A DNA stretch of 64,000 nt from Roseofilum reptotaenium CS-1145 (GTDB lineage: Bacteria; Cyanobacteriota; Cyanobacteriia; Cyanobacteriales; Desertifilaceae), in NCBI RefSeq assembly GCF_028330985.1, contig NZ_JAQMUE010000021.1, positions 1-64,000 of the forward strand, read 5' to 3'. The notes beneath the pieces were generated by a model. It did no database searches. It was not told the DNA's origin and saw nothing but the letters and a program-made list of their open reading frames with translations. This document shows positions 10,408-53,551 of the stretch, one piece after another. The stretch's first letter is position 1; the number at the start of each line of letters is the position of its first letter. The position numbers and the translations under genes were made by a program.

Positions 10408-10560
10408 TTTTTAGGGCATTGTGCGCTGGTAATGGGTGATTATTTCCTATTGCCTAGCGCTTCGTACTATACAAGTTAACCTTCTAAAACTTGCGCTCAA
10501 CGCTTGACTCTATATTTTGGCCTATTGTAAGCTGATTTTAATGTGAAGGTAATAATAAAA

Positions 10561-10851
10561 ATGGCCTCAGAAGAACAGAAAACAACGGGTGCAGATGCAG
10601 TGGATGTGGCGATCGCCCAAGGAATTGATTTAGATGGCAGTCCCATTCCCTCAGCCAAGTTAGAGTTATATCATAACGTTATGGGTTTGGAAGCTAATCG
10701 CCAACGCAGTGGAGTCAGTAATACGATGCGATCGCGCATTGTTCGCATTGGAGCCAAGCATTTACCTCAAGATGAACTCAATAAAAAGTTACTCGATGCA
10801 GACTTTGCCCCATTAAAGGATAAAGAAATCCGCTTTTATTACGGAGGTTGA
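10561..10851 (+). CDS. DUF4090-like small conserved cyanobacterial protein
   Basis: A soluble 96-aa protein. Recognisable conserved blocks are IDLDGSPIP, ANRQRSGVSNTMRSR and RIGAKHLPQDELN, with the C-terminal ADFAPLKDKEI ending in FYYGG. I recall these blocks from DUF4090, a family confined to cyanobacteria and without known function. I take ATG 10561 (MASEEQ) as the start; AAGG lies 12 nt before it, and the in-frame GTG at 10543 adds only six atypical residues. A copy of the 73-bp dispersed repeat starts 5 bp after the stop codon and must lie in the 3' UTR. Confidence 0.78.
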   Translation: MASEEQKTTGADAVDVAIAQGIDLDGSPIPSAKLELYHNVMGLEANRQRSGVSNTMRSRIVRIGAKHLPQDELNKKLLDADFAPLKDKEIRFYYGG

Positions 10852-10855
10852 ATCT

Positions 10856-10930
10856 TATATAGTGTTTCTCTCTTCTATGAGGTACAGCTTGAAACCTTAG
10901 AACCTAAGCCATACAAGCTATTCCCTATTC
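10856..10930 (+). repeat. Dispersed 73-bp repeat, copy A
   Basis: Aligns almost without gaps to 23285-23357 and 38717-38788. Shared blocks are TATATAG, TCTCTCTTCT, GTACAGCTTG and CCTTAGAACCTAAGC, running into the TTCCCTA heptamer. It contains a nested stem: AGCTTG (10886-10891) with CAAGCT (10914-10919), and CTTAG (10896-10900) with CTAAG (10904-10908). Confidence 0.8.
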
Positions 10931-10932
10931 CC

Positions 10933-10947
10933 TAGCGCGAAGCGCTA
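10933..10947. repeat. Mini-hairpin TAGCGC-GAA-GCGCTA
   Basis: Perfect 6-bp stem with a GAA loop, directly preceded by TTCCCTA heptamers. The same 23-bp string of heptamer plus hairpin occurs at 25019-25041, an inverted copy with one mismatch is at 47433-47453, and a decayed one is near 10455-10470. Confidence 0.7.
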
Positions 10948-11068
10948 TAGAACCCATTGAGGATATTTTTAACCAGTGGTTAATCTTTAGGATCTGTCCA
11001 ACGGGTTGAGTACGGTATTTTGTAGCGATTTAACTCTATCAAAAATATCTCAAAGGGTTTAAACCAAT

Positions 11069-12241
11069 CTAAGGATGGGCTAAACCTTTTAACACGTTGC
11101 CTTTCTCCTGTTCGCTTAATCCCTTCCCCTGGATTAATACCTTAAACCCACCTAAACCTAGGGGATCGATTAACTGGTGTAAGGCATCTCGACGGCTGAA
11201 CAGTTCAGTAATAGAAAGGGAACTTTCGGATAAGGCTGCCAGGCGATCGCCGAGTCCGAGCGCCATTAAAAACAACCCTTGATCTGTAAACCCTAATGGC
11301 TCTAGTCCCCAGCGTTTGCCCTCCTGCTCTAGGCTGGTAAAATCAACGTGGGCCGTGATATCTTGATAGCCGATATTAATATAGGGGCAATCGTGGCGAT
11401 GGTGGCGCGTATAACATTGTAGCGTTCCCATTGTGCGCCCGGGTTGATAATATCGTTGGGCCGTATATCCGTAATCAATCGCGATCGCATAACCGCGCTC
11501 TAAGTGGCTGGCGATCGCCTCTAGCCAGTCTAGCATCGCTAAATTCACTTCCGTGCGATAGCCCTCTGGATAGGCATCCGAGCATAAATCAATGCCCAAA
11601 TGCTCAAAATATTGAGCTAATTTTTGAGTAGATAACTCCCCTAAAACTTCCACCACATTGTCTTGATTGTCCAGGGTAACAAACACTTCTTGCAGCTTCT
11701 CCCCAGAACGCACGACTAAATGTACCGGAAACGCATCGACTAATTCATTAGAAAAAAAACAGCCCTGAATCGAATCTAAATCTGCCCAGTTGCACCAATG
11801 AACTCGCGGTTTTTCCTCTAACCAAGGCGCTAAATTTTGTTTCTGTATCTGCCTTAATCCCGGAGATTTTTCCACAATCCGATAATCGAGACTCTGAAAA
11901 AAATCGACATCGTAGGTTTCTAACTCCCTTAAGACATCGGCCGCCATGTATCCGGTTCCTGCGCCCATTTCTACCACTGAAAAGGGAGTGGGACAGCGCA
12001 AAATCTGCCACATTTGCACCCATTGACGGGCCAAAAGCTGGGCAAAATCTGCTCCTAGACTGGCCGAAGTGAAGTAATCGCCAGATTTGCCAATTTCCGT
12101 CTGATAGGTACTGTAATAGCCAAATTCAGGGTGATATAGCACCGATTCCATATATTGAGCAAAGGTAATTTTGCCCCCTGGCGATCGCCTAATTCGATCC
12201 TTGAGCCATCGATACAACTGGGGATGATTCTGCTCCTTCAT
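11069..12241 (-). CDS. MidA/NDUFAF7-type class I SAM-dependent methyltransferase
   Basis: 390 aa of the DUF185 (Methyltransf_28) family, whose mitochondrial member NDUFAF7/MidA methylates an arginine of a complex I subunit. The N-terminal family signature is present (YMESVLYHPEFGYYS, then GDYFTSASLG). The SAM-binding motif is VVEMGAGTGYM near residue 95. Substrate in bacteria is not settled; a role in NDH-1 assembly is only inference from the eukaryotic homologue. It starts 6 nt after the hisD stop, so the two genes are almost certainly cotranscribed. Confidence 0.85.
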   Translation of the reverse strand: MKEQNHPQLYRWLKDRIRRSPGGKITFAQYMESVLYHPEFGYYSTYQTEIGKSGDYFTSASLGADFAQLLARQWVQMWQILRCPTPFSVVEMGAGTGYMAADVLRELETYDVDFFQSLDYRIVEKSPGLRQIQKQNLAPWLEEKPRVHWCNWADLDSIQGCFFSNELVDAFPVHLVVRSGEKLQEVFVTLDNQDNVVEVLGELSTQKLAQYFEHLGIDLCSDAYPEGYRTEVNLAMLDWLEAIASHLERGYAIAIDYGYTAQRYYQPGRTMGTLQCYTRHHRHDCPYINIGYQDITAHVDFTSLEQEGKRWGLEPLGFTDQGLFLMALGLGDRLAALSESSLSITELFSRRDALHQLIDPLGLGGFKVLIQGKGLSEQEKGNVLKGLAHP

Positions 12242-15100: not shown

Positions 15101-15188
15101 ATGGGGGTATCGGAAGATAGAGGGACACACAGACGTGAAGACGCAAAGACGCGTGGAGGAGAGGACACGCAGACACGGAAAAATTGAT

Positions 15189-15216
15189 TCCCTATTCCCT
15201 ATTCCCTATTCCCTAA
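15189..15216. repeat. TTCCCTA heptamer array, four perfect copies
   Basis: Four tandem TTCCCTA units between tatD and rpoB. Related arrays of TTCCCTA, TTCCCCA and TTGCCTA lie at 18610-18670, 25006-25024, 38780-38801 and 53510-53551, all intergenic. Confidence 0.9.
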
Positions 15217-23284: not shown

Positions 23285-23357
23285 TATATAGCACGTCTCT
23301 CTTCTGGAGGAGTACAGCTTGAAACCTTAGACCCTAAGCAATACAGGCTATTCCCTA
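23285..23357 (+). repeat. Dispersed 73-bp repeat, copy B
   Basis: Same block order as copy A with one inserted base. The inner stem CTTAG/CTAAG is kept. The outer stem is AGCTTG against CAGGCT, where the A-to-G change still pairs as a U-G wobble. Lies about 140 bp before ald. Confidence 0.8.
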
Positions 23358-23497
23358 GGGAATAGGGAGTAGGAAAGGCAGAAAGCCTCTAGATCCCTGA
23401 TCGCCTCGTAGTCAGCTAATTTGCCCCACTTACCCATTTTTAATTTTTAATTGATATAAGCTGGATCTAGAGGGATTTCAGCATGAAGAGGTAATTG

Positions 23498-24939: not shown

Positions 24940-25024
24940 AATTGTTGGTTCTATGGAATCGATATCTTTCGTGATAGCCAATGGTGATCCAATTCTCCGA
25001 CCTTATTCCCTATTACCTATTCCC

Positions 25025-25039
25025 TAGCGCGAAGCGCTA
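25025..25039. repeat. Mini-hairpin TAGCGC-GAA-GCGCTA upstream of rsmG
   Basis: Identical to 10933-10947 and again joined to the TTCCCTA heptamer. It lies 13 nt before the rsmG ATG, so it would place a GC stem next to the ribosome-binding region. Confidence 0.7.
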
Positions 25040-25052
25040 TAACTTGTGACAA

Positions 25053-38716: not shown

Positions 38717-38801
38717 GCTATAGCATTTCTCTCTTCTATGAAGTACAGCTCGAAGCCTTAGAACTTAAGCTATACAAACTATTGCCTATTGCCTATTCCC
38801 T
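38717..38801 (+). repeat. Dispersed 73-bp repeat, copy C, plus heptamers
   Basis: Aligns to copies A and B through TATAG, TTTCTCTCTTCTATGA, GTACAGCT and CCTTAGAACTTAAGC. The inner stem is now CTTA/TAAG and the outer stem has decayed (AGCTCG against CAAACT). It runs into ATTGCCTATTGCCTATTCCC. It separates xisI from the convergent mrdA. Confidence 0.75.
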
Positions 38802-53509: not shown

Positions 53510-53551
53510 TTACCTATTTCCTGTTACCTATTGCCTATTGCCTATTGCCTC
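53510..53551. repeat. TTGCCTA/TTACCTA heptamer array after glmS
   Basis: Successive 7-bp units TTACCTA, TTGCCTA, TTGCCTA and TTGCCTC, a variant of the TTCCCTA arrays elsewhere in the window. Confidence 0.85.

Follow-up and report, generated by a model that had tools for sequence, protein, structure and literature searches.

Short gene-less repeats of Roseofilum genomes that are very probably IS630-type MITEs

Nezha elements insert at TA and are kin to the IS630 elements. They have been named as MITEs of cyanobacteria (cited in PMC10969869), and ISY100 of Synechocystis, which carries 24-bp inverted repeats and inserts into TA with duplication of the TA, encodes a transposase that on its own can move a mini-element in which 30 bp of each end are kept (PMC2170065). 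A cyanobacterium is among the organisms in which repeats of another sort, the G-rich heptamers, are over-represented in non-coding DNA (PMC4692102). The repeat described here was noticed in three copies within a window of 64,000 nucleotides, i.e., the whole stretch of Roseofilum reptotaenium CS-1145 DNA that was analysed, and it is very probably a gene-less MITE of about 85-129 bp for which an IS630/Tc1-mariner transposase, acting in trans, would provide the mobility. No description of the element was found in the titles and abstract openings listed from the open-licence PubMed Central literature on cyanobacterial MITEs, heptamer repeats, Roseofilum repeats or transposons and IS630 MITEs, and four letter strings taken from it are absent from the open-licence papers of that archive; within those papers, the original statement that the repeat is undescribed stands uncontradicted.

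Architecture of the element and its copies in the window

The unit opens with TATAGCG and closes with CGCTATA, and of the first 30 loci, 29 have it at a length of 92-113 bp (at the remaining one, L015, the right tip was not found); over the genome copies the full-length element ranges from about 85 to 129 bp, or from 86 to 130 over the first 60 model matches with one flanking base included. Its left end reads TATAGCG..TTCTC..GAGGTACAG and is followed by a core of nested stems, an internal array of TTGCCTA/TTCCCTA heptamers and, as the right tip, the hairpin GCGCGAAGCGCTATA. The terminal inverted repeats, TATAGCGnTTC and GAAGCGCTATA, extend for about 11 bp, further inward of which the left and right ends diverge, and the outer TATAG and CTATA occur together in 32 of the top 36 fetched copies and, of the 49 that follow, in 12. 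At three loci (L010, L019 and L027) the loop of the right tip is found in inverted form, with GCGCTTCGCGC in place of GCGCGAAGCGC.

The three related copies reported in the window by the sequence-only reading (Table 1) are real, lie on the plus strand and can be aligned over the length that it gave, and their placement relative to genes was also described correctly: copies A and C begin 6 and 18 bp, respectively, past the ends of ORFs, and copy B lies upstream of an ORF. The length of 73 bp proved too short, copy A being complete at 92 bp (10858-10949), and the view that the copies run into or end at heptamers has to be amended, since the heptamers sit inside the element and the terminal hairpin comes after them. 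As had been noted, the inner stem of 5 bp is present in all three copies (with a G-U pair in copy C), and the outer stem of 6 bp has a wobble in copy B and two broken pairs in copy C. A 34-nt pattern of the core, allowing up to three mismatches, matches the window twice (copies A and B; 0.00 matches expected in shuffles); copy C has more than three mismatches to this pattern and yet is matched by the covariance model (78.1 bits).

Elsewhere in the window there are right-end modules, consisting of heptamers and a hairpin tip, at 25002-25042 and, in decayed form, at 10440-10470, neither with a recognisable core of this family, as well as free (TTCCCTA)n and (TTGCCTA)n arrays at about 15185-15215 and 53520-53550, to which no hairpin is attached. 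A G-quadruplex role for the heptamers was considered and abandoned because many copies have GGCAATA rather than GGGAATA.

Table 1. Features of the three copies in the window
Feature	Position	Strand	Basis
Copy A, complete MITE of the young subfamily (TATAGTG...GCGCTATA), 92 bp	10858..10949	+	covariance model, 116.3 bits, E 5.0e-26
Copy A, left terminal repeat, 30 bp	10858..10887	+	matches IS630 terminal repeats; family consensus 24/30 to each end of the C67 element
Copy A, nested stem-loop core AGCTTG..CTTAG..CTAAG..CAAGCT	10886..10919	+	pattern and folding
Copy A, heptamer array of two TTCCCTA units, inside the element	10921..10934	+	sequence
Copy A, right tip hairpin TAGCGCGAAGCGCTATA	10933..10949 (C21)	+	sequence
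Copy B, diverged MITE of the older subfamily, right tip lost	23287..23377	+	covariance model, 68.4 bits, E 2.2e-13
Copy B, segment of ~172 bp with duplicated TA, missing from three relatives	23287..23458	+	orthologous sites with one TA
Copy C, diverged MITE, ends in heptamers, right tip lost	38719..38798	+	covariance model, 78.1 bits, E 5.8e-16

Copy number, genomic context and folding

A 39-nt pattern of the core, again with up to three mismatches, has 42 matches in the genome (19 forward and 23 reverse), and its reversed control has none. The covariance model, which was built from 28 copies, gives at least 113 matches at E<=0.01 and at least 91 at E<=5.4e-6 among the 150 that were scored of 3,387 first-look candidates, one chimeric locus being counted on both strands; the weakest matches include a second MITE family. 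Over their first 66 nt, the top 30 fetched copies (one older, 29 young) differ on average by 4.4%, and one subfamily has spread recently. The sequence-only reading had expected many intergenic matches with compensatory changes; the matches are many and lie mostly outside ORFs, and the measures of compensatory change are not raised. It had also named a total of only three copies together with a lack of covariation as the outcome that would tell against it: the first half of this is wrong, the copies being many, and the second half is what was found.

A search of 59 genomes was carried out with stricter filters, at most 67 candidates being scored per genome and a match being taken as E<=1e-5. 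Matches occur in five of these genomes, namely the own genome (at least 67), G001 (45), G005 (15), G002 (5) and G004 (2), and at that threshold there are none in G003, the sixth genome of the same genus, or in the 53 others. It appears that, among the genomes searched, the element is confined to the genus Roseofilum. A 27-nt pattern compared with named genome contigs was found in UBA2566 (four stretches) and in Roseofilum halophilum BLCC-M91 (one); the plasmid collection yielded no match to the element, and nowhere in the viral contigs is the 27-nt core pattern matched exactly. Four Lactobacillus phage records resemble 48 nt of copy A (83%, E 5e-4), the likeness falling under annotated genes, and were taken as chance.

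The sequence-only reading had left open whether the repeat is a small non-autonomous element or an RNA of 3' untranslated regions. A structured RNA of the latter kind (terminator, stabiliser or attenuator) that is kept by selection is very unlikely. Two of the window copies do closely follow stop codons, and copy A has a more stable fold than its shuffled versions (z -3.39), but copies B (z -1.09) and C (z +1.09) do not. In an alignment of 76 distinct copies that was itself fitted to the structure, 89.3% of cells are paired against a shuffled mean of 88.6, a value attained by 1 of 500 shuffles, and the covariation score of 0.093 tops those of all slid versions (next 0.084). Against the shuffles, however, this score has little to set it apart (0.090, with 85 of 500 reaching it), and the same is true of pairs changed on both sides (5 versus 3.4; 96 of 500), compensatory cells (7 versus 5.1; 111 of 500) and pair types (16 versus 14.5; 119 of 500). 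The genomic context also argues against such an RNA: 69 of the top 75 matches could be placed relative to mechanically called ORFs, their flanks being long enough, and 67 of these lie outside ORFs of at least 100 aa and two inside, the contexts being convergent (17), divergent (15), tandem on the same strand (14), tandem on the opposite strand (13) or undetermined (8). Rfam has no match at gathering score in the window; a mir-190 match near copy A (minus strand, E 0.12, in a scan of 10700-11100 at E<=10) is below the gathering score and was taken as chance. With copies in every gene context, no orientation bias and no clear covariation, a 3'-UTR RNA is not supported, and it is the mobile-element half of the proposal that is upheld, by the copies, inverted tips, TA, empty sites and IS630 termini. 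The nested stem-loop would most simply be a property of the founder DNA, copied along with the element, rather than a selected RNA.

Empty sites, the TA target and IS630 partners

From the flanks of young copies, 18 constructs were made in which the element is left out and one TA remains, and 14 of them were compared with five relatives. G001 is the closest of these (93.8-97.0% identity over the joined-flank pieces). There, six constructs out of 14 can be aligned through the junction with a single TA (L007, L008, L018, L019, L020 and L027; at L008 and L020 this TA belongs to a TA run), one site is occupied (L026) and seven are without an informative alignment. Other relatives have empty sites as well: G005 at L018 and L019, G004 at L019 and L026, and G002 at L026; in the two genomes that are empty at L026 the target is TG. 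Two constructs were not counted, namely L006, with a cross-junction match of 123 nt in G005 (88%) and another on C61 of G001 (86%) that looks like repeated sequence, and L017, for which the match in G001 extends only about 12 nt beyond the junction. Several further sites gave less clean comparisons, which counts against the reading: at C98:7923, G001 is without the element and sequence around it, some 465 bp in all; C98:3328 is occupied in G001, and the other relatives differ there by more than the element; C20:7388 of G001 corresponds to different sequence in the own genome; and at C74:19099 and C74:22515 one flank is not conserved in each case.

Among the window copies, the filled and empty evidence consists of copy B, for which G002, G004 and G005 keep both flanks with one TA between them, G001 is occupied and G003 cannot be aligned. 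The stretch missing from the three relatives exceeds the length of the MITE by about 80 bp, which counts against a simple MITE insertion at this locus. The additional sequence (23378-23458), missing along with copy B at the three empty sites, ends in repeats of the TTTTTAATT type. As judged from these aligned sites, the element inserts at TA with duplication of the TA, and its copies are present or absent between close relatives.

The right-end terminal hairpin and the internal stem-loop might call to mind palindromic elements of the REP/REPIN or PATE kind, which a Y1 (IS200/IS605) enzyme mobilises and which leave the target unduplicated. This is highly improbable, since insertion at one TA, followed by its duplication, accounts for each of the six clean empty sites in G001, and since the terminal repeat is one shared with a DDE element of the IS630 type. 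More improbable still is a passive repeat arising from slippage or recombination of heptamer arrays. The length of the array does differ among copies and, at the shared site L026, between the own genome and G001, but arrays account for the right part only, and slippage was rejected for the unit as a whole because slippage does not give a unit whose ends are fixed, whose targets are TA and for which exact empty sites exist.

The own genome has 15 matches to DDE_3, 11 of them above the curated cut-off, and a search for inverted ends around its IS630 genes led to one element of 1,022 bp (G000:C67:40603-41624, in L033), whose DDE_3 (PF13358) match scores 111.6 bits in the genome search. The ends of this C67 element, TATAGCCTTTCTCGAATTAATGAGGTACAG and TATAGCGTTTCTCAAATAGATGAGGTACAA, agree with one another at 25 of 30 positions and each with the left end of the MITE, TATAGCGTTTCTCTCTTCTATGAGGTACAG, at 24 of 30, so that the repeat is very probably an IS630-type MITE. 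When all 6,874 TA-anchored 30-mers of the window were compared on both strands, the two best scores were 29 and 28, the values of copies A and C, and no other exceeded 18. The likeness to IS630 termini extends to one end, because the right end of the MITE agrees with the C67 ends at just 13-14 of 30 positions. The transposase of the C67 element matches PF13358 in its C-terminal part (93.9 bits, above cut-off) and the NCBI IS630 model at 83.3 bits (below the cut-off of 100). Over its first 66 aa there is no Pfam match and only a weak one to the IS630 model, its frame has two in-frame stops, and a single copy of the element was found in the genome. It has no match at E<=1e-10 in G002, G004 and G005, and in G001 and G003 its matches are at 28-46% identity only. 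Since this transposase is broken, the enzyme that now acts is one that we infer. Such an enzyme would bind the left end via the ATGAGGTACAG box, act on both TATAGCG tips, excise the element and paste it into a TA.

The IS630 at C101 was considered as a partner and dropped once the C67 element proved to carry the GAGGTACA box; this C101 element (L137:1312-1982) has 19-bp palindromes, TATAGCGCTGCGCGCTATA, at both ends and a transposase ORF of just 202 aa. It is quite possible that the MITE is moved by another IS630 of the genome, such as the two-ORF element at C103:79188-80216, and that the C67 element is merely a dead cousin. The C103 element has overlapping ORFs of 133 and 201 aa with no stops, and its right end, TACAGCGCTTTGCGCTGTTATGAGGGACAG, combines a TAYAGCG tip with a ATGAGGGACAG box. 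It is also tied to a second MITE family (TACAGCGCTTTGCGCTGCTATGAGGGACAGTATTG...), which has a hairpin-type left end sharing 31 of 32 positions with the C103 right end and, at its own right, the same heptamer-hairpin end as the first family. The two MITE families thus have one right end in common, but at its left end the present family is like the C67 element and unlike the hairpin-type tip of C103.

One copy of the second family (C98:4543-4650; L176:3544-3651) is empty in G001 with one TA; further copies are at L131, L132, L130 and L083, and there are many in G001 and G005. One intergenic region holds a second-family MITE in G001 (L213, C209:3131-3242) and a first-family MITE in the own genome (L177:8516-8615, C74:22515), apparently through independent insertions. 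Another short repeat, ACCATTTCTCTATGATGATGCGC, is found at about 2488-2540 of L138 and about 6560 of L176 and may be a third small element.

The right end itself, read inward, consists of TATAGCGCTTCGCGCTAGG followed by heptamers of the GCAATAG type, and the box found at the left end of the MITE is replaced there by hairpin and heptamers. Among related IS630 elements, the end on the C-terminal side has a TAYAGCG-like tip followed by an ATGAGG.ACAG-like box in most of 14 rows. The C67 element has its ATGAGGTACA box at both ends, and the C103 element has its box at one end and only a weak version, TTGGTATACAG, at the other. A chimeric copy at C68:52680 carries the right-end module on both sides. 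The shared right end, with its GCGC hairpin tip and an array that grows and shrinks, might be a portable and self-evolving end that is swapped between elements and works at least as well as the original one, which we regard as rather unlikely; this reading was marked down because IS ends in the group can themselves be unequal.

Comparison with known elements

The element accounts for a good number of the intergenic repeats of Roseofilum, and its copies can serve as insertion markers in the comparison of strains. It also advises caution against taking such folding repeats for RNAs, and, should the right end common to the two families prove a genuine alternative transposon end, it would offer a simple test of how much inequality of its ends an IS630 element tolerates.

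The repeat belongs to a known kind of element, within which it forms a new family with an unusual right end that bears repeats. As is the case for Nezha, it is a gene-less cyanobacterial element in many copies; its unequal ends and internal heptamer array would set it apart from Nezha. With ISY100 it shares the IS630/Tc1-mariner family and a duplicated TA target, but ISY100 is autonomous and has two similar ends, whereas the present element is gene-less and one of its ends differs (PMC2170065). The BrickBuilt MITE of Porphyromonas gingivalis is likewise intergenic and built around an internal tandem-repeat array of variable length; it has units of 23 bp, ends like those of the IS5-family ISPg1/ISPg4 and 19 copies, in contrast to the 7-bp units, IS630-type end and larger copy number found here (PMC4596501). 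The MITEs of Anabaena sp. 90 are also cyanobacterial, 77-541 bp long and mostly intergenic (132 of 147), but they are reported to have no similarity to the IS ends of their own genome, whereas here a matching IS was found (PMC3542288). The G-rich heptamers GGGAATC and GGGGA(C/T)T resemble the internal array in being 7-base tandem repeats that vary in number; their unit sequence is another one, the portion of the text that deals with them makes no tie to a transposon, and the GGCAATA form of the present element has two Gs (PMC4692102).
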